Positions 6,206 to 14,697 of a stretch of DNA of 64,000 bases are shown here, piece by piece; position 1 is the stretch's first letter, and every line of letters starts with the position of its first letter. The stretch spans positions 1 to 64,000 of the forward strand of contig JAFSIQ010000043.1 in the NCBI GenBank assembly GCA_017439675.1, in the 5' to 3' direction. The DNA comes from Lachnospiraceae bacterium (GTDB lineage: Bacteria; Bacillota; Clostridia; Lachnospirales; Lachnospiraceae). Both the position numbers and the translations under genes were made by a program. A model generated the notes under the pieces. The model saw nothing but the letters and a program-made list of their open reading frames with translations. It was not told the origin of the DNA and did no database searches.

Positions 6206-6337
6206 TAGCAATATATACATTCCTCACAATTTGAATTTCATAAAATTTTAAATCATATTGTGAAATTTTAAATCCCACAATCATCTATAATAAAATCAAA
6301 AAGGTGAAAGCACATATACTGCGCTTCCGCCAAATCA

Positions 6338-8902
6338 TTATTTCATAAATTGCACTTTTTCTCTCACACGCTGTAATTTATCTAGTAATGGTCTCAATCC
6401 AATCCATAGAAAACCAAATGTTGCTACTCCGTGAATCAAATCATATGGAAGTCCCACCGCCACAGCAGACAGGAGCATCTTTAGATTCACATTTTCCTGA
6501 TACATGAGAACAGATGCCGAATTCATAATGACACCATATATGGCAATTACCGAAAAAAAACCAAATAAGCAAACTAAGAATTTCTTGTTTTTGATATTCT
6601 CCTTACTGTTTTCAAATATCACTCCTGCCATAAAGCCCAGTATTCCCATTGCAAACATCTGCCATGGCGTCCAAGGTCCCTGCCCAAAGAAAATATTAGA
6701 AACCAACATTGCCATGCAACCAACTAAAAAGCCAGATTCCGCCCCCAATCCAATTCCAGCAATAATCACCAAAGCTGCCATAGGCTTCACGCTTGGAACC
6801 ATATAGAACAACGTTCTTCCCGCTACCACAATTGCACTCATCATGGAAAGTAGCATGATGTCTCGCACCTGCGGTTTTCGCTTCTCAAACCGTATAAAGA
6901 AACAGACAATTGCCTCTATGATTAACAATAGGGAAATAAAATAATACTTTCGATGCAACAACACCACATCTCCCACATAAATAGTGATGGGCATAATCAA
7001 ACACACTGTAATTATGGATAATAACCATCGATACCACATGCTAGATTTTGCACTTTCTTTCATTGATTTTTCACTTGCCCAACCAATTTCTCTTTTCGAT
7101 TGTGCAAATTTTATATCGTTATGTCCATTCCTCTTATTGATATTTTCATTTCTCTGTCCCCTTGTCTGCTCCGATGTTCCGTTCGTTTCATCATGCGGAG
7201 CAGGAATCCTTCTCGTCCCATTCTCCCAGCCATGTATAACGTCTTCCATCAATACTACATTAGGCAAAAGCCCCCTGCACATTCTTGCAGTAGCTGTTGT
7301 GTAAAATGAATTCTCCAAGAAAAAATCATGGCTATCCGAAAGAGATACTACATTGCCATCAAAGAACAGACCACATACATCCGCATACCTTGCGCAAAAT
7401 TCTACATCATGGCTAACCAGCAATACTGTTTTCCCTTTTTCTACCAGTTTGCGCAGTAGTGAACCCATTTCACATTTAAATGTATAATCCATACCTTTGC
7501 TTGGTTCATCCATGAGCAAAACTTTTTTATTCTCCAATAAGAGTTTTGCCAACGCTAGCTTCTGCATTTGTCCTCCTGACAAATCAAACGGATGCTGCGT
7601 TAATACCAATTGCAAATTGCAAAAATTAATAACTTCCTGCAAATCCAACTCCTGATTATCACTCATGGATGATTCCAATTCCTCTTGAACCGTCTTTTTC
7701 GCAAACATAGCCTGTGGATTCTGTGGTAACATACCAACATCATCCAGACCTATTGCTCGTTTTTCTGTTTTAGAACCGTTATATTGTATCTTACCCAAAT
7801 AAGCAGAATAATGTCCTGCCAACACGTTCAATAACGTAGACTTTCCAGCACCATTTCCGCCAAGAATCGCAGTAATCTTTCCCAGTTGTACTTTAAGACT
7901 ACATGCCTTCAACACATCCTTACCATTTTTCTCATAGCGAAACCACACTTCATCTGCGAGGATAGCATAATTTGTCTGTGAGATAGTCCTGTCCGCTTTC
8001 TTCTTAACTTCAGGTGCTAACGCACGAGACATCCCCTTTATATCTTCTGATTCATCCTTTGCACCTTTCACATATCCTCTTAGCCACTTCCTACCATCAT
8101 TGACGCTTAACGGGATTTGTTCCCCTGTTCCACCCAGAGCAAAAAACAACTTTGAAGCGGTGGGAAGAGCCTTATACAAAGTGTGTTTTTCTTCATATAA
8201 CTGATGGGCAATCTGCTGTGGCGTCCCTACTGCAAATACATGCCCTTGCTCCATTACACAAACCCTATCACACATGGAAAAAACCTCTTCCAAGCGATGT
8301 TCCGACATTACAACAGTGGTTCCTAATTCGTTATTAATCTTTTTTATCATTTGAAAAAATTCAGTAGCGGCAAGCGGATCTAACTGACTTGTAGGCTCAT
8401 CTAATACCAACACCTCTGGCTCCATCGCCATAACCGATGCAAGATTAACCAACTGTTTCTGCCCTCCTGACAGATTACAAAGCTTTTCATGATAGATTCC
8501 CTCTAATCCGAAAAAAGCAGTCATTTCTGCAATCTTTTTCTGCATTCTATCCTGTGAATAGCCAAGACTTTCGAGACCAAATGCCAATTCATGCCAGACC
8601 TTATCTGTCACCTGAGGCGCATCCACATCCTGTCCCACGAAACCGACGAAATGAGCTTGCTCTCTATCATTTAAATCTTCTATCCGCTTATTGCCAATCC
8701 ATATTTCACTCTCAGCATTTCTCACCCCGGCAGGCATATATTCTCTTTTTAAATGTCGAAGCAATGTAGTTTTTCCACAACCCGACACACCAGTAATCAA
8801 AACAATTTCTCCCGATGCTACCGACAAAGAAACATTGCCAAGAGAGAATGCACTGTGTAGATTATATGCAAATGTCAAATTTTTGATTGTAATTTGTTCC
8901 AT
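6338..8902 (-). CDS. ECF transporter: fused ATPase-ATPase-S component
   Basis: An 854-residue fusion. ATPase domain 1 (about 1-235) has Walker A GVSGCGKTTLL, signature LSGGQKQLVNLA and Walker B VLVLDEPTSQLDP. ATPase domain 2 (about 312-530) has GGNGAGKSTLL, LSGGQMQKLALA and VLLMDEPSKGMD. A low-complexity linker (about 565-620) leads to a membrane S-component (about 622-854) with five or six helices and the motif GQGPWTPWQM near 750, which I associate with CbrT-like corrinoid S-components. AGGAG precedes the ATG at 8902, which overlaps the T-component gene by 28 nt. Fusing all but the T subunit is unusual. The cobalamin riboswitch upstream makes corrinoid the expected substrate. Confidence 0.9.
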   Translation of the reverse strand: MEQITIKNLTFAYNLHSAFSLGNVSLSVASGEIVLITGVSGCGKTTLLRHLKREYMPAGVRNAESEIWIGNKRIEDLNDREQAHFVGFVGQDVDAPQVTDKVWHELAFGLESLGYSQDRMQKKIAEMTAFFGLEGIYHEKLCNLSGGQKQLVNLASVMAMEPEVLVLDEPTSQLDPLAATEFFQMIKKINNELGTTVVMSEHRLEEVFSMCDRVCVMEQGHVFAVGTPQQIAHQLYEEKHTLYKALPTASKLFFALGGTGEQIPLSVNDGRKWLRGYVKGAKDESEDIKGMSRALAPEVKKKADRTISQTNYAILADEVWFRYEKNGKDVLKACSLKVQLGKITAILGGNGAGKSTLLNVLAGHYSAYLGKIQYNGSKTEKRAIGLDDVGMLPQNPQAMFAKKTVQEELESSMSDNQELDLQEVINFCNLQLVLTQHPFDLSGGQMQKLALAKLLLENKKVLLMDEPSKGMDYTFKCEMGSLLRKLVEKGKTVLLVSHDVEFCARYADVCGLFFDGNVVSLSDSHDFFLENSFYTTATARMCRGLLPNVVLMEDVIHGWENGTRRIPAPHDETNGTSEQTRGQRNENINKRNGHNDIKFAQSKREIGWASEKSMKESAKSSMWYRWLLSIITVCLIMPITIYVGDVVLLHRKYYFISLLLIIEAIVCFFIRFEKRKPQVRDIMLLSMMSAIVVAGRTLFYMVPSVKPMAALVIIAGIGLGAESGFLVGCMAMLVSNIFFGQGPWTPWQMFAMGILGFMAGVIFENSKENIKNKKFLVCLFGFFSVIAIYGVIMNSASVLMYQENVNLKMLLSAVAVGLPYDLIHGVATFGFLWIGLRPLLDKLQRVREKVQFMK

Positions 8903-9708
8903 CTTCTCTCCTCCCAACATTCCTCTATTACTGGAAACATGCAAAGCCAGCCATAAACTAAGTAAATGCTTACAGAATACAACCGAAAACCGCTACCAGC
9001 AGCCTTTGGATAATAGTCCCAGACGAGACCATCGTTACTACAGCCTACAATAATGTACACTAGCGCAGATAGGAACAGCATTAACCGAATACCATCCCTC
9101 TTTGTAAAACGGTATATTGTATAACTAGTTCTACCTGCTAATCCGTATCCTCTTCCTTTCATGCTATCAGTCATGTTAATCACATCATCCAATGCCCATG
9201 TGATTAATATAGACAGATTCTCTATCACATGCGTCCCTCTACATCGCCTAATTTCCTGAAGCTTTCGATGCAGCTTGGGAACAAACCCAAGAATCATAGA
9301 CAACACAAGACTCAATACAGGAAACCACCTTCCAAAAAGATACACAATTTTATCCGAGGTTATAATTTCACTCATACACCGAAACCACATAACAGAAGAT
9401 GCCAACATAAATGCTGCCGCAATCCCGTAAAATATGGATTCTAATGTGAGCACATTTCCTGTAGGAAGATACGTTAGTATTGTTATTCCTTGATGGCTAA
9501 ACGCCGGATTCATAATTGCCGTAAGTAGCATAAGCACAAAAAGACCGTCAAATCCTTTTCTGGCATTTGTCCAACCAAACAAACGCAACACATAGATAAA
9601 TGCGCCTATCGTGCTAAAAGCAAGGCATACCGGATGCATTAAGAACATACTACAGCCGATAACCCCACAAAAATATATGAAATTTACAATCGGATGATAA
9701 CGCTCCAT
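8875..9708 (-). CDS. ECF transporter T component (EcfT/CbiQ family)
   Basis: The membrane scaffold of the energy-coupling factor, 277 residues. Hydrophobic segments cluster in the N-terminal two thirds. A cytoplasmic coupling region carries the paired Ala-Arg-Gly-like motifs seen here as IRRCRGTHV and DSMKGRGYGLAGRT. These signatures bind the two ATPase domains. GAGGAG lies 5 nt before the ATG; the start is 2 nt after the stop of the DUF4430 gene, and the stop lies inside the next gene. Its only partner in the window is the fused ATPase-S protein. Confidence 0.92.
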   Translation of the reverse strand: MERYHPIVNFIYFCGVIGCSMFLMHPVCLAFSTIGAFIYVLRLFGWTNARKGFDGLFVLMLLTAIMNPAFSHQGITILTYLPTGNVLTLESIFYGIAAAFMLASSVMWFRCMSEIITSDKIVYLFGRWFPVLSLVLSMILGFVPKLHRKLQEIRRCRGTHVIENLSILITWALDDVINMTDSMKGRGYGLAGRTSYTIYRFTKRDGIRLMLFLSALVYIIVGCSNDGLVWDYYPKAAGSGFRLYSVSIYLVYGWLCMFPVIEECWEERRWNKLQSKI

Positions 9709-9710
9709 AC

Positions 9711-10646
9711 CTACTCCTCAAAATATCTGCCTATATCTTTTCCCAACTGACAACTATATAACCAGCGAATCACGTCTCCATCCTTTATAGTATAATAAGA
9801 ACTGCTCCCTTCTGGAAACTCGCCATTTACACTATACATCCAACCTGAGGCGTCCCCACAATCAAATTCATACAGATTATAAATTCCTTCTATATAGTAA
9901 CTTTTGAAAGCTGGCGTATAGGTGTATTCCAAATGAATCTTTTTTTCCTTAGTAATCTGTTGTAGCACATCAAATACACTAGCGTCTTTCGCGACCCAAA
10001 TCGTCGTTTCCTCCAAAACCACACCATCCTTTGGTATCATGCTTTTTTTCGCTGCCGGCAAACGTTCCATATTATCTAATACCGTAGCACAGGAAATGTA
10101 AACTGTGCATTGTATTTTATCCTCTGATTGCTTTGTCTCTGTAGTTACATCTTTATCTGATTCAGAATTAGTATTCTGCGTATTGTCCTCTTTGGTTTTC
10201 TTTTCTGTCTTTTGGGATTTACTCTTCTTTTTACTACTTTTCTTCTCTTCCGCTATCGTTTTCTTTGACTCTTTCTCCGCTACTTTATTGGCATTCTTCT
10301 GTGCCTGCTTGCCATTCTGTGACTGCTTAGCGGAATCCGACGCCTTACTTTTCAGCTTCACATTCATAATAATCTGCTGAAATATATTGGTCTTTTCCTC
10401 TGCTTGGGTAACAGAATCATCCTCCACCCCATTACTGCTAGCAGACACCGTATCGGAATCGATAGATGAATCCGTTTCATTTATTCCTGCCTCTCCATTT
10501 ACACCGATTCGTGACTCTACATTGTTTTTGTCTGACACGGAAAATCCTTGTAACCCCGGTGCGTCTCCTCCATACCAAAAGGAGAAAACCAAGACACCGA
10601 TTACACATGCAACCCATATTAATTTTTTCCAAATTTTCTCCTTCAT
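9711..10646 (-). CDS. Membrane-anchored DUF4430 (transcobalamin C-terminal-like) protein
   Basis: An N-terminal hydrophobic segment (about 10-27) is a signal or anchor. A long charged spacer rich in Lys, Ser and Gln (about 30-180) could span the cell wall. A C-terminal DUF4430 domain (about 218-303) has the diagnostic pattern YYIEGIYNLYEFDCGDASGW, then MYSVNG and IKDGDVIRWLYS. This domain is the homologue of the beta domain of transcobalamin and intrinsic factor, which closes over bound B12. Directly upstream of the ECF T component and downstream of a toroid protein. Inferred role: presenting corrinoid to the ECF transporter. Confidence 0.85.
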   Translation of the reverse strand: MKEKIWKKLIWVACVIGVLVFSFWYGGDAPGLQGFSVSDKNNVESRIGVNGEAGINETDSSIDSDTVSASSNGVEDDSVTQAEEKTNIFQQIIMNVKLKSKASDSAKQSQNGKQAQKNANKVAEKESKKTIAEEKKSSKKKSKSQKTEKKTKEDNTQNTNSESDKDVTTETKQSEDKIQCTVYISCATVLDNMERLPAAKKSMIPKDGVVLEETTIWVAKDASVFDVLQQITKEKKIHLEYTYTPAFKSYYIEGIYNLYEFDCGDASGWMYSVNGEFPEGSSSYYTIKDGDVIRWLYSCQLGKDIGRYFEE

Positions 10647-10719
10647 CGTTTACCTCTTTCCTACTTGTTTCAGTGACCCCTTTATCATAAGTCACAGTAC
10701 ACAATCCTACCCGTCACTT

Positions 10720-12450
10720 CTATTTCTTCTTTACAATCACTTTTACATCCGCTTTCGCTCCGTTTTTAGTCGTTACAGTAATCTTTGCTGTCCCAGGTTT
10801 TACTCCCTTAAGAACTCCTTGTTTTGTGACCTTGACAATCTTTTTGTCCGAACTTTTATAACTGCGAATAACATCGAAGGAATTAGAAAGCTTACAGCTT
10901 GTTTGCAAGATTTCCTTTACACACAATTTATAAGTCTTCTTTTTGAATTTAATCGTACTTTTAACTGATTTCTTTTGTACAGTAACCTTACATTTTGCTA
11001 TCGCTCCACTCTTCATGGTAACCGTAATGGTCGCCTTTCCCACCTTCTTTGCAGTGAGTTTTCCCTTTTCGTTCACCGTAACAACCCTCTTGTCAGAAGA
11101 TGTCCATTTTACCACTTTGTCCGTATCCAATTTCTGTACCACCCTCAAGGCATTTGTAGATTTATTCACCTGTAGCTTACCATTTCTAGTGCTTAACCTT
11201 ACCGCTGGAGTCTTAACCGTAATCGTAATGGTTGCCGTGGCTCCGCTTGCAGAGATTGCAGTAATCTCCGTGGTGCCTTTCCTTACGCCAGTGAGTAATC
11301 CCGTATCAGAAATCGTCGCCACCTTTTCATTTGCACTGGTATATTGAATAATCGAATCATCCTCCTCAGAACAGGTAATTGCTAACTGTACTTCTTGTGT
11401 CGCATAGAGCGTATCGTGTTCTTTTTCAAAAGAAATAAATGTAGGCTTTACCAAATCACCTGTTTTAATTGTAGTCAAATCCCAGTAGGAGCCCTCACCA
11501 TTTTGATATTTCTCATAAGCAGTAAACGCCTGTAACACCTGCATGGTTGTCATACTGTCTGGATTTGTCTTACCCAATGCATGAACATATCCGGATGGAT
11601 TCTCGATATAAAATGTATTCAAGTAGGTAATGAAATTGTTGTTCACATCACTGAATCCTGATGAAGCATCAATTGCATCAACCCCCAGTGCAGACAAAGC
11701 AATCCACACTTGTGTCGTAGCTTCTGGGGAGCCGAATCCGCAATCTGTAGACTGTTGGTTCTTCAAATAATCAAGTGCCTTTCCAACGGAAGCACTGACC
11801 TTGGCATCTGCCTTATATGGTGCCAAAGCCTGCAATGCCATTGCAGTCATATCCACACTGGCACTGGTATTATCCGACAAGCCAAATCCACCATTACCAT
11901 TTTGAAATTTCAAAAGTTCCTGAATAATTTCATCTCTAGACCACTTTGCATCTTCCGGTATTGCCGTCTGTTTTGCATCCAACGCTAATAGCGCATACAC
12001 TAGCTCGTTTGAACCACTCGCCAGCTTCGAACTATTATATATCATGGCAGCAAGATTCACACCTTCCACATCTGCAATATCTTTTCCTAAGATAGATAAT
12101 GTCAACGCCACTCGTTCTGCATCGGTTGGCTTTTCCGTTCCGTCCCATGTCTTAATTTCCTTTGCAACAGAATTGTAATAAGAATTTATCTGTACCTGGG
12201 AAACCTCTGCACCAGAGCTCACCATCGTATACAAAATCCACTCATACCCATAGGAATATGTTTCTGGATATTCTCTGTGCAAATATGCAATTGCACCTTT
12301 CTTACCTTTGCTTATCATTGCATCAAAAGCCTCATTGGTTGTATCTACTGGCGTTGCTGTTGCCGCATAAACATATTGATTTCCTAACAGCAACATTATC
12401 ACAAAACATACAAATAAAAATGTTGCTCCCTTTTTGCACCAATTTTTCAT
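10720..12450 (-). CDS. Exported alpha/alpha-toroid protein with Big_2 domains
   Basis: A signal peptide (about 1-29, ending near YAATA) leads to an alpha-helical toroid region of the squalene-cyclase/prenyltransferase fold (about 35-330). It shows the repeat signatures FQNGNGGFG, DMTAMALQALAPY, CGFGSPEATTQVWIALSALG and MTTMQVLQAFTAY. Three bacterial Ig-like Big_2 domains follow (about 345-576), with repeated pattern SADEKVATIS/GVRKGTTEIT-like. There is no enzyme active-site motif of cyclases, so it is more likely a binding protein. The N-terminal barrel of intrinsic factor has this same fold. AAGGAG lies 9 nt before the ATG. Inferred role: surface corrinoid capture. Confidence 0.82.
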   Translation of the reverse strand: MKNWCKKGATFLFVCFVIMLLLGNQYVYAATATPVDTTNEAFDAMISKGKKGAIAYLHREYPETYSYGYEWILYTMVSSGAEVSQVQINSYYNSVAKEIKTWDGTEKPTDAERVALTLSILGKDIADVEGVNLAAMIYNSSKLASGSNELVYALLALDAKQTAIPEDAKWSRDEIIQELLKFQNGNGGFGLSDNTSASVDMTAMALQALAPYKADAKVSASVGKALDYLKNQQSTDCGFGSPEATTQVWIALSALGVDAIDASSGFSDVNNNFITYLNTFYIENPSGYVHALGKTNPDSMTTMQVLQAFTAYEKYQNGEGSYWDLTTIKTGDLVKPTFISFEKEHDTLYATQEVQLAITCSEEDDSIIQYTSANEKVATISDTGLLTGVRKGTTEITAISASGATATITITVKTPAVRLSTRNGKLQVNKSTNALRVVQKLDTDKVVKWTSSDKRVVTVNEKGKLTAKKVGKATITVTMKSGAIAKCKVTVQKKSVKSTIKFKKKTYKLCVKEILQTSCKLSNSFDVIRSYKSSDKKIVKVTKQGVLKGVKPGTAKITVTTKNGAKADVKVIVKKK

Positions 12451-12477
12451 GTTATCTATCTCCTTAATATCACCACA

Positions 12478-12507
12478 AAAGTCAAGTGTGATTCCACACC
12501 TGACTTT
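12478..12507 (-). terminator. Internal terminator or attenuator within the B12 locus
   Basis: On the minus strand AAAGTCAGGTGTG, a GAAT loop and CACACTTGACTTTTG form a strong stem with one mismatch and a short T run. It lies between the FN3 protein and the toroid protein and may lower expression of the downstream genes or mark the end of an mRNA segment. Confidence 0.6.
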
Positions 12508-12606
12508 CGGGCAGTTACATATTCTACAAATGATTCAGAGCCTATTGGAAAATACTTTACATCTCCCATGCAATTATATTACTTGTATCTAGCTCGAACC
12601 CCTTTA

Positions 12607-13686
12607 TTATTTCACTTTCACTGTCATCTTAGACGACCATGCACTATATCGGGTTTTAAGTGTGACACATTTGTCCGTACGTGTCTTTGTTGTCTTATAT
12701 GTACGAATTCTAACATAATATTTCTTCTTAGATTCCAATGACTTTTTAATGATTTTCTTGGTCACATTGGCACCCTTTACCTTGTAGGTCTTAGTCTTAG
12801 AAGCTTTAAACTTAGCAGATGTGCTAACCTGAATCTGATATCCAGTTACATTACTCCTCTTCTTCCATGTCACCTTAATCTGCTTCTTCTTAGGAGTCTT
12901 TACTTTCTTGAGACTGGTTGCCTCTGGCTTCTTAGATTCTTCTGTCAACTTCTCACTAGCAGAAGCAATCTCAGACTGTGTTGCATCCCAATCCTCCAAC
13001 GCGTTAATCGCTTTCTTATATGCAGAGGATGATTTGTTACCAGTAAAGTTTGCAACCTGGCTAATCAACTCATCCTTGTTTGCAAAATCAATAATCGGTG
13101 CGCCCCACTCTGAAGTAGCAATGTTGGTATCTCCATAGTACATTGTAAACTGTACACGGATTACAGAACCATCATGGTAGGTGTCAGCAATTCCTTCCTT
13201 GCTATACTTAACACCTGACATTCCATAATTGGCTGATACATTGTCTACTAAAAATGTATATCCCGAGGAACTCACATAATCGTAAGATGAAAGCGTAGTT
13301 GCATCTACTCTCTTCGCATCATTGGTAAGTGCACTTCCCAATGATTCTCTGATTTTACCAGGAATATCATTGATGGTCCAACCTTCCGGTTCTCCACCAT
13401 CCTTAAAACCAGTCATATAAGTACCCCAACTACCCTCCGTGAAGATGATACTATCACCATAAGCTCTCTTCACAATATCTTCCACGCTTTCTGTTTCATA
13501 ATAACCTACCTTCATAGGTTCTTCCGCAAAACCCTGCCCTACTGTGGAACGTTCCATTGTTACATACACATAGCCATCATAGGCTGTTTCTGCATTGGCA
13601 TCCAATGCAGCACCTGGAGAAATTAAGCTGATTGCCATTACAAGCATCAGCATCCAGGAAATTAGTTTGTTTCTTGTCGTTTTCAT
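12607..13686 (-). CDS. Exported DUF4430-like protein with FN3 domain
   Basis: A signal peptide (about 1-32, cut near ANAETA) is followed by a beta-rich region of about 200 residues. Its features match a long-insert version of the DUF4430/transcobalamin beta domain: VYVTMERSTVGQG, GYYETESVEDIVKRAYGD, GYTFLVDN and DGSVIRVQFTMYYG. A helical stretch (about 205-245) and one fibronectin type III domain (about 250-359, KKKQIKVTWKKRSNVTGYQI) complete it. The ATG overlaps the stop of the HNH-repeat gene (ATGA), so the two are translationally coupled behind the cobalamin riboswitch. DUF4430 membership is by pattern only. Likely a cell-surface corrinoid-binding component. Confidence 0.75.
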   Translation of the reverse strand: MKTTRNKLISWMLMLVMAISLISPGAALDANAETAYDGYVYVTMERSTVGQGFAEEPMKVGYYETESVEDIVKRAYGDSIIFTEGSWGTYMTGFKDGGEPEGWTINDIPGKIRESLGSALTNDAKRVDATTLSSYDYVSSSGYTFLVDNVSANYGMSGVKYSKEGIADTYHDGSVIRVQFTMYYGDTNIATSEWGAPIIDFANKDELISQVANFTGNKSSSAYKKAINALEDWDATQSEIASASEKLTEESKKPEATSLKKVKTPKKKQIKVTWKKRSNVTGYQIQVSTSAKFKASKTKTYKVKGANVTKKIIKKSLESKKKYYVRIRTYKTTKTRTDKCVTLKTRYSAWSSKMTVKVK

Positions 13687-13970
13687 TCTTCAACCATTCC
13701 TTTCTTCTCCGCCAGTTCTTGTTTTAATATTTTTCTTTGTGCATTTTTTGCTCTTTTCATCTCAATCCGCTTCTGTCTTCTTTTATCTGCTTTGGTATTT
13801 TCCTTTGGCTCTTTAATCCCTGCCGCTTCCAATGCCCTTGGCCACGGTCCAAAGTAGGACTTAATGGCGGACATTTCTGCCACGGAAAAGTCTGCCTTTC
13901 TCGGATAAATGCCGGTTTCCTTATATCTACGCTGTAGTAAATCAATGCAATATTCTCTTGTAAATGACAT
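13683..13970 (-). CDS. Small HNH-repeat (homing-endonuclease-associated repeat) protein
   Basis: 95 residues. Residues 1-50 (REYCIDLLQRRYKETGIYPR, then FGPWPRALEAAGI) match the helical HNH-associated repeat, a DNA-binding module normally found in homing endonucleases and some regulators. The remainder is a very basic helix rich in Lys and Arg (residues 55-90). No HNH catalytic motif is present. AGGAGG lies 7 nt before the ATG, and the stop overlaps the next start by ATGA. It is the first gene after the cobalamin riboswitch. It could be a DNA- or RNA-binding regulator of the locus; function unknown. Confidence 0.75.
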   Translation of the reverse strand: MSFTREYCIDLLQRRYKETGIYPRKADFSVAEMSAIKSYFGPWPRALEAAGIKEPKENTKADKRRQKRIEMKRAKNAQRKILKQELAEKKGMVEE

Positions 13971-14082
13971 GCTGATTCCTCCTATGTAAATATAAGTTCA
14001 TGGTCGCTTGACTTAGCCTTCACTCTTCCTTGAAAGAAAACTGCTCGCTGCACAGCCACTTGACTAGTGTGACATTCCTTTG

Positions 14083-14118
14083 AAAACAAGAAAAGCCTTA
14101 CCTTCCAGGAAAGTAAAG
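14083..14118 (-). terminator. Candidate expression-platform terminator of the cobalamin riboswitch
   Basis: On the minus strand CTTTACTTT, loop CCTGG and AAGGTAAGG (with G-U pairs) are followed by the T-rich tract CTTTTCTTGTTTTC. It lies about 65 nt after the aptamer and before the first gene, where a B12-dependent terminator would be expected. The stem is modest. Confidence 0.5.
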
Positions 14119-14182
14119 CACAGCAAAAAGACACTCCGAATCAATCGAAATGATACTCTTCCTTACCCAAAAGCAAAAACGC

Positions 14183-14365
14183 TGAAATATGCGAGTATTC
14201 TGGCTGAAAGAATCTTAACAGTCATCTTTTTCAAAATAACCTTACTCAATTCTTAACACAGTAATGGCGGTTGCACCGGATTCACACCGAATTTCCCTCT
14301 AATCTGTTAGCTTCGAAATCCACTTCGCAATCATCGAAATGTCATTCCAACAGAGCAATATTTCA
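14183..14365 (-). promoter_or_regulatory. Cobalamin riboswitch
   Basis: Minus-strand leader RNA. Core motifs in order: GAGGGAAATTCGGTGTGAAT, then CCGGTGC, ACCGCCATTACTGTG, AGTAAGGTT and finally GCCAGAATACTCGC. They match the conserved core of B12 riboswitches (GGGAA..GGTG..AATCC, the CGCC..ACTGT box and the CCAG.ATAC box). A closing P1 stem is visible: TGAAATATTGC (14365-14355) pairs with GCATATTTCA (14192-14183) with one bulge. A hairpin TCTGTT/AACAGA lies before the core. In the known class adenosyl- or aquocobalamin binding turns expression off. The downstream genes are the HNH-repeat protein, DUF4430/toroid proteins and the ECF transporter. Confidence 0.93.
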
Positions 14366-14415
14366 AATTCAATTTTATTGTGGGCTGCGATTCTTTCATT
14401 AGCCACACATCACAC

Positions 14416-14444
14416 ATTCTAAAGTGATTTCTTACAAAAGTCAA
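14416..14444 (-). promoter_or_regulatory. Promoter of the cobalamin riboswitch transcript
   Basis: TTGACT (14444-14439), 17 nt, TAGAAT (14421-14416) on the minus strand. It overlaps the last codons of the Cys-rich gene and would start RNA near 14409, about 45 nt before the riboswitch P1 stem. The B12 locus can therefore be transcribed independently of the gene upstream. Confidence 0.7.
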
Positions 14445-14697
14445 TCTCTTTTACCTGTTTCATGATTTCCCCATAATTATCCCGGATATGAGGTCTGACA
14501 CATTTAGAACAATCCATCGTTCCATCTTCCAAAATTGTTGGATTACCACCACAATCAGTGCCCAACACATACAATGGACAATAGCAGAACAAACAATTAA
14601 ATTGTTCTAAGTCAATCCCATTATGACAGGGGTAAAATTCACACTGTTCATTTCGAAAACAGGAGTAATGCTTCCCTTTCCAATCTGATTCTGACAC
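14419..14697 (-). CDS. Cysteine-rich small-domain protein (putative metal binding)
   Basis: 92 residues with about ten cysteines: CFRNEQCEFYPCH, FNCLFCYCPLY, TDCGG and DCSKCVRPH. The layout matches the 'cysteine-rich small domain' family, a probable metal-binding module of unknown function. Relatives often sit near corrinoid genes in anaerobes (from memory), and here the cobalamin riboswitch begins directly downstream. The start is a GTG at 14697 preceded by GAGGTGA. It has its own promoter overlapping the lysS terminator. It is soluble, with no signal peptide. Confidence 0.8.
   Translation of the reverse strand: MSESDWKGKHYSCFRNEQCEFYPCHNGIDLEQFNCLFCYCPLYVLGTDCGGNPTILEDGTMDCSKCVRPHIRDNYGEIMKQVKEIDFCKKSL

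Follow-up and report, generated by a model that had tools for sequence, protein, structure and literature searches.

A candidate corrinoid capture and import operon pairing toroid and DUF4430 proteins with an ECF-CbrT-like importer in a Lachnospiraceae bacterium

How do the many Clostridia without corrin-ring synthesis catch vitamin B12? The question is raised by a locus of a Lachnospiraceae bacterium (GenBank assembly GCA_017439675.1), located on positions 1 to 64,000 of contig JAFSIQ010000043.1, a stretch of 64,000 nucleotides that is referred to here as the window. Six genes form a single minus-strand run, spaced by -4, 156, 73, 2 and -70 bases, behind a candidate cobalamin riboswitch (Table 1). 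Two of them code for exported DUF4430-type proteins (D1 and D2), one for an exported alpha/alpha toroid, and two for an energy-coupling factor (ECF) transporter, consisting of an EcfT protein (T) and an EcfA-EcfA-EcfS fusion (A-A-S). A sequence-only reading of this DNA had likened the exported proteins to animal intrinsic factor and transcobalamin, with the two folds of those carriers placed on separate proteins. The gene coordinates and order are as that reading gave them, all on the minus strand in a contiguous run, and the two folds are indeed encoded by separate genes. Its observation is confirmed and is wider in extent than was claimed; its interpretation is partly supported. The locus is likely to be a cobalamin-riboswitch-controlled operon for corrinoid capture and import, in which a toroid/DUF4430 clamp spread over three exported proteins would feed an ECF-CbrT importer.

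The A-A-S fusion contains two ABC_tran stretches and an ECF-ribofla_trS match of 50.3 bits in Pfam. When the S domain was compared with the PDB, the only match at E ≤ 1 was 6fnp_A, which belongs to ECF-CbrT (E = 5.6e-10). A profile built from 33 S domains matched CbrT at 2.7e-21, compared with 2.6e-4 for RibU and 3.5e-4 for 4hzu. The transporter of the 6FNP structure, ECF-CbrT, carries cobalamin and cobinamide, and hemin does not compete (PMC5997447, in its available part). The window EcfT had no match in Pfam. It is a phmmer homologue (3e-54) of the T protein of a related locus (L032), itself matching CbiQ at 30.7 bits, and CbiQ/EcfT was matched by four of the eight relatives' T proteins scanned, two of them above the cut-off. 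The S domain is predicted to be a CbrT-type S-component and the whole to form a cobalamin ECF importer with two ATPases and EcfT, in agreement with the transporter assignment made earlier.

Among the exported proteins, D1 matched PF14478 (DUF4430) at 63.8 bits. Its single hydrophobic segment is N-terminal, at amino acids 5-28, and its spacer has a predicted isoelectric point (pI) of 9.7. Searched against Pfam, D2 gave no DUF4430 match; its family was aligned by hhalign with the D1-type DUF4430 family at 99.3% (E = 1e-20), and a one-round profile search from D2 reached D1 at 6.7e-7. D2 also has an N-terminal hydrophobic segment, and its tail has a pI of 10.7. The toroid domain taken alone scored 25.9 bits against Prenyltrans, just under the cut-off of 26.5; the protein begins with a signal-like N-terminus and ends in a tail with three Big_2 stretches (83.5 bits). 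The putative binding domains are predicted to be acidic (pI 4.4-4.7), and the tails and spacer basic (9.7-10.7). These results favour the earlier classification of D1 and D2 as DUF4430-type exported proteins and of their neighbour as a putative exported toroid.

DUF4430 was present in 95 of 200 genomes of the family. From 40 of the 95 positive genomes, one high-scoring DUF4430 place per genome was taken (loci L032-L071, a few high scorers being skipped). A toroid was detected at 32 of these 40 loci, EcfT at 38, EcfA at 37 and EcfS at 37; DUF4430, toroid, T, A and S were all present at 29. Fusions were also found among them, with the toroid preceding DUF4430 in five cases and following it in 12, and with A-A-S in a single chain in 10. 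A separate fusion query had 299 pattern matches in named genomes; 270 of them were relatives, and 80 loci were kept. Because they were found in this way, fusions are over-represented among them, and two (L072 and L147) appear to duplicate the records of L067 and L043. By their record titles these relatives are mostly Lachnospiraceae, Oscillospiraceae and other Clostridia, with one Desulfosporosinus. The toroid is followed by DUF4430 in one chain at 69 of the 80 loci, natural single-chain fusions that uphold the pairing of the two domains, and the reverse order was found once. EcfT was present at 73 of the 80, and EcfT together with EcfS at 65. Exactly two hydrophobic segments separate the fused toroid and DUF4430 in 66 of the 69 chains (three in the other 3), so that with two intervening segments both domains would sit outside the cell. 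A profile of 64 fusion members matched 113 of 291 genomes of the class. Giant proteins of 1964-2717 amino acids, with DUF4430 and toroid in the C-terminal half, were also observed (L041, 4884-13037; L068, 1563-9380; L047, 6447-12341).

Minimal modules were found in the same family (L171-L180 and L185-L204), in which a small anchored DUF4430 protein accompanies a CbrT-like S protein, often behind a cobalamin riboswitch. A gene matching the S profile at E 5e-5 or better lies in the same piece for 26 of the 30 small DUF4430 genes. For two S proteins of these modules, 6fnp_A was the sole PDB match at E ≤ 10. A toroid was not detected in the ten longer minimal-module loci (L171-L180). On this evidence DUF4430 and S may form the core of the system, with the toroid as an added clamp.

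The riboswitch had been described earlier as a clear one. An Rfam scan of the window at gathering level gave no Cobalamin match. With Infernal, RF00174 was matched over its full length at 14337-14173 on the minus strand with 19.3 bits, against a gathering cut-off of 31.5 (E = 0.0098, 601 bases searched). This was also the sole RF00174 candidate at E ≤ 1 in the bacterium's own genome (2.0 Mb, 70% complete), where its E-value was 0.0076. In the one same-genus genome examined, RF00174 scored 27.9 bits at the same locus, likewise sub-threshold. A locus-trained model (R1), made from the riboswitches of 13 relatives at this locus with the window excluded and the same-genus sequence included, gave the window riboswitch 69.7 bits (E = 4e-12), the runner-up scoring 18.1; R1 has only five base pairs and is therefore close to a sequence profile. 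By alignment, the window aptamer has its core motifs and position in common with accepted RF00174 members at the same locus. The leader was not predicted to fold with significant stability (z -0.9). The description as clear therefore stands by context and by the locus model, and fails by the Rfam score; the element is taken here as a real, divergent cobalamin riboswitch. Short divergent cobalamin aptamers of 126-165 nt occur in the window and in some relatives (L034, L058, L068 and L033), and may sense non-adenosyl cobalamin. A PduO-type adenosyltransferase (the BtuR type was not searched) was sought in eight genomes; it was absent in seven, and the eighth gave one sub-threshold match.

The association of riboswitch and DUF4430 was evaluated in two sets of genomes. 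In the first, comprising the 40 locus genomes and the window's own, 38 of 64 RF00174 places (E ≤ 0.05) lay no more than 10 kb upstream of DUF4430 on the same strand, compared with 0.25 expected. A riboswitch was so placed in 30 of these 41 genomes, and in 21 of the 22 that had a single riboswitch. The second set consisted of 40 of the other 54 DUF4430-positive genomes, whose DUF4430 frames are mostly short. Here, 22 of 54 places, in 22 genomes, were upstream of DUF4430, all within 1.7 kb, compared with 0.09 expected when one genome size of 3.2 Mb is assumed for all; a riboswitch was not found at DUF4430 in the other 18 of the 40 genomes.

With regard to corrin-ring synthesis, CbiC was found in six of the 40 locus genomes (0 of 15 and 6 of 25), versus 31 of 38 DUF4430-negative genomes of the family (Fisher 3.7e-9, a value that overstates independence because the genomes are related). 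The 38 negative genomes were those up to G083, leaving out G005, G006, G010, G011, G016, G018, G020 and G023, six of which are less than 90% complete, and CbiC was not looked for in G030. CbiC was found neither in the bacterium's own genome nor in the same-genus genome, which is 99% complete. The own genome encodes two B12-binding proteins, one MetH-like and one radical SAM; the former scored 395.6 bits over the part read, under the family's full-length cut-off. The host bacterium is probably a B12 auxotroph.

B12 as the ligand, which had been inferred earlier, is supported at the level of sequence by CbrT as the sole PDB match of the S domain, by the riboswitch association in both genome sets and by the link with a lack of CbiC. 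These results also bear on the alternative that the operon imports a compound other than a cobamide, such as heme, flavin or another cofactor. The Pfam label of the S domain, ECF-ribofla_trS, speaks for such a substrate, whereas the S profile ranks CbrT well ahead of RibU, the association is with a cobalamin riboswitch, CbiC is lacking, and hemin is no competitor for CbrT. Non-B12 import was rejected on the S profile, the riboswitch association and the CbiC link, and is considered very improbable.

Kinship to the animal B12 carriers was evaluated separately for the two domains. Transcobalamins bear a C-terminal DUF4430 domain (PMC4350170, in its available part). When a profile of 29 small DUF4430 proteins was searched against 177,635 PDB sequences, the first rank was taken by 3u7z (RUMGNA_00854; 5e-35) and the second by transcobalamin-1/haptocorrin, 4kki, over its C-terminal region (0.0012). 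Thus, sequence comparison gives good support to a kinship on the beta side, of DUF4430 to haptocorrin and more weakly to intrinsic factor. On the alpha side, PF01122, the eukaryotic cobalamin-binding family, touched four of 34 toroids, with a best value of 0.0033 and all four under the cut-off. Ten sub-threshold PF01122 matches were found in the 41 genomes, of which the two best and the ninth are in toroid genes of this locus, and nine in 398 genomes of the phylum, of which five are in or beside DUF4430 proteins. The strongest match, also sub-threshold (2.9e-4), lies in a 1437-amino acid frame with DUF4430 and SLH (L157 and L166; G240, a distant phylum member), and PF01122 was the only toroid-type family matched in the L157 protein. 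The evidence that relates the toroid to the alpha-domain of the animal carriers is suggestive, and the alpha and beta sides are tied together because many fusions share the domain order of intrinsic factor. The earlier statement that the folds are those of intrinsic factor and transcobalamin is supported for the beta-domain; for the toroid it is weaker and tentative.

In solved structures, a profile of the 34 toroids matched squalene-hopene cyclases best, at 5e-21. From this it could be argued that the toroid is a secreted enzyme resembling terpenoid cyclases or prenyltransferases, that it modifies a lipid or a peptide at the surface, and that it is encoded in a B12 operon only incidentally. 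The cyclase motif, with a catalytic role, is D-x-D-D-T-A. In the toroids, its last D is mostly M, I, V, L or T in the alignment rows listed, and the window protein reads S-V-D-M-T-A. The signal-like N-terminus, the presence of DUF4430, T, A and S beside the toroid at 29 of the 40 loci and its many fusions to DUF4430 also count against such an enzyme. The secreted cyclase was rejected on locus context, fusions and motif loss, and its probability is judged to be very small.

Several results weigh against the corrinoid capture and import function proposed here. The window riboswitch scores under the Rfam cut-off. The own genome gave no match to a PduO-type adenosyltransferase, in a search that did not extend to the BtuR type, and this bears on the cobalamin form that the riboswitch would sense. 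The absence of CbiC from a genome that is 70% complete is weak evidence. Intrinsic factor took only the third and fourth PDB ranks with the small-DUF4430 profile (3kq4, 0.23; 2pmv, 0.24; both C-terminal), which alone is not significant; a profile of the window's own DUF4430 subtype found no carrier in the PDB, and its link to the carriers runs via the small subtype (hhalign 88.7, E = 2.5e-6). Toroid profiles matched squalene cyclases far more strongly than any cobalamin-binding protein, and toroid searches of solved structures never found intrinsic factor. The window toroid had no PF01122 match, PF01122 was never above its cut-off in the 41 or the 398 genomes, and one of 14 control genomes, that of Bacillus subtilis, also had a sub-threshold match. 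Finally, DUF4430 was found without a detected toroid at eight of the 40 loci, and the toroid is therefore not essential to import.

These eight loci, together with the ten longer minimal loci in which no toroid was detected, favour another explanation, that DUF4430 alone is the corrinoid accessory of ECF-CbrT and the toroid a wall or surface anchor or scaffold without B12 contact. The commonness of the minimal modules (S-profile genes with 26 of the 30 small DUF4430 genes) and the riboswitch close upstream of DUF4430 in 22 of the 40 second-set genomes are in keeping with it. Against it stand the toroid's occurrence at 32 of the 40 loci, in one chain with DUF4430 at 17, and the five of nine phylum-wide PF01122 matches that are fused or adjacent to DUF4430; in addition, the Big_2 and FN3-like tails already provide attachment. 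An anchoring role without B12 contact is regarded as rather unlikely.

Under the proposed capture and import function, low cobalamin would lead the riboswitch, whose aptamer is recognized from model score and context, to permit expression of the operon. The DUF4430 beta-domain would bind the corrinoid and the alpha/alpha toroid would close over it, as domain kinship and natural fusions suggest. The basic tails and spacer may hold the acidic binding domains near the wall or membrane. Such a clamp could reopen, since its halves are separate chains or, in relatives, are linked through a membrane hairpin. The anchored DUF4430 protein would then hand its corrinoid over to the S domain of CbrT type, and this domain would import it with the dedicated A-A-T module. 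As a 2026 paper points out, the B12 transport proteins of eukaryotes hold the vitamin enclosed by a pair of domains and are then internalised and digested (PMC13398666, in its available part); a split or hinged clamp would spare the carrier this digestion. A further proposal, that Clostridia have proteins truly homologous to the animal carriers in the form of a clamp able to reopen, is tentative and somewhat more doubtful than probable. In it, toroid and DUF4430 would be separate or hinged through the membrane, the corrinoid would pass from toroid/DUF4430 to DUF4430/CbrT with DUF4430 as a lid moving along with the vitamin, and the bacterial system would share one ancestral domain pair with intrinsic factor, transcobalamin and haptocorrin.

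Table 1. Features of the candidate corrinoid operon, in order of transcription.
Feature	Position	Strand	Basis
Variant cobalamin riboswitch aptamer	~14340-14174	-	RF00174, locus-trained model and context
Terminator-like hairpin after the aptamer and ahead of the first gene, a possible expression platform	14095..14119	-	Terminator scan
Operon gene 1, small HNH-repeat protein (PF18780)	13683..13970	-	40.3 bits
D2, putative exported divergent DUF4430 protein with basic FN3-like tail	12607..13686	-	Profile-profile comparison
Putative exported alpha/alpha toroid (~amino acids 66-327) with three basic Big_2 repeats	10720..12450	-	Prenyltrans, Big_2
D1, membrane-anchored DUF4430 protein with long Lys-rich spacer, DUF4430 C-terminal	9711..10646	-	PF14478
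EcfT transmembrane component	8875..9708	-	Homology to CbiQ-matching relatives
EcfA-EcfA-EcfS fusion, CbrT-like S domain at ~6356-7003	6338..8944	-	ABC_tran (two), ECF-ribofla_trS
Terminator-like hairpin at operon end	6306..6328	-	Terminator scan

Terminator-like sites in the region were near chance (7 versus 5.4 expected), and promoter-like sites showed no excess (26 versus 25.1). The riboswitch had also been credited with its own promoter, a claim that is unsupported because promoter-like sites are no commoner than chance. The first gene of the operon has counterparts in six of the 40 relatives, where an HNH-associated-repeat protein occurs at the locus (L034, L037, L041, L058, L059 and L061); its gene directly follows the riboswitch in all six except L041, and the protein of L037 has four repeats. 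The HNH-repeat protein is possibly a DNA-binding regulator. Upstream of the riboswitch, at 14419-14697, the window encodes a small Cys-rich protein (PF04071, 83.9 bits). The same protein is found upstream of the riboswitch in the same-genus genome and in one further relative (L041, 4192-4482; L039, 14429-14686).

ECF-CbrT and the annotation of an accessory lipoprotein are already known, 'additional lipoprotein component of putative cobalamin ECF transporter' being the existing database name of K8Q211 (table of PMC9963975, in its available part). The toroid/DUF4430 capture module, as defined by sequence, is apparently new. No description of it was found in a literature search that covered mainly openly available papers, and in the available parts of papers naming DUF4430 no bacterial member of the family is assigned a function with B12 (PMC4350170; PMC9963975). 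For C. difficile, a riboswitch review names uptake of the BtuCDF type and, in its available part, no toroid/DUF4430 system (PMC11477304). The locus offers a testable answer to the question asked at the outset, namely a capture module akin to the B12 carriers of the host, and it hints that the two-part design of B12 carriers is not confined to animals. If the proposal is true, such bacteria would have a means to compete for B12, a natural split B12 clamp would be at hand for structural work and engineering, and the origin of intrinsic factor would become a testable question.

Among the known systems, RUMGNA_00854 (3u7z), named 'putative metal binding protein', matches the profile of the small DUF4430 proteins, which together with a CbrT-like S make up the minimal form; this form differs from the window in having neither a toroid nor a dedicated ECF module. 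BtuG and BtuH are exposed B12-scavenging proteins of Bacteroides, as are DUF4465 proteins. Gut bacteria scavenge B12 by exposed proteins encoded in riboswitch-regulated loci, as is proposed for the window; DUF4465 is a beta-jellyroll family tied to TonB-type uptake (PMC13398666, in its available part). ECF-CbrT of Lactobacillus delbrueckii (6FNP) resembles the window importer in its homologous S domain and its A, A and T components. In that species a single ECF module is predicted to serve eight S-components, CbrT among them (PMC5997447, in its available part); in the window, by contrast, A-A-S is one chain, encoded in a dedicated operon together with exported, putative capture proteins. Intrinsic factor, transcobalamin and haptocorrin differ from the window in that the latter has three separate exported chains, wall or membrane tails and an ECF partner; bacterial relatives often join the domains via a two-helix hydrophobic hairpin, and the alpha kinship is sub-threshold only. 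What the animal carriers have in common with the bacterial proteins is the combination of a putative alpha/alpha toroid with a DUF4430-type beta-domain, the toroid coming first in many of the bacterial single chains.

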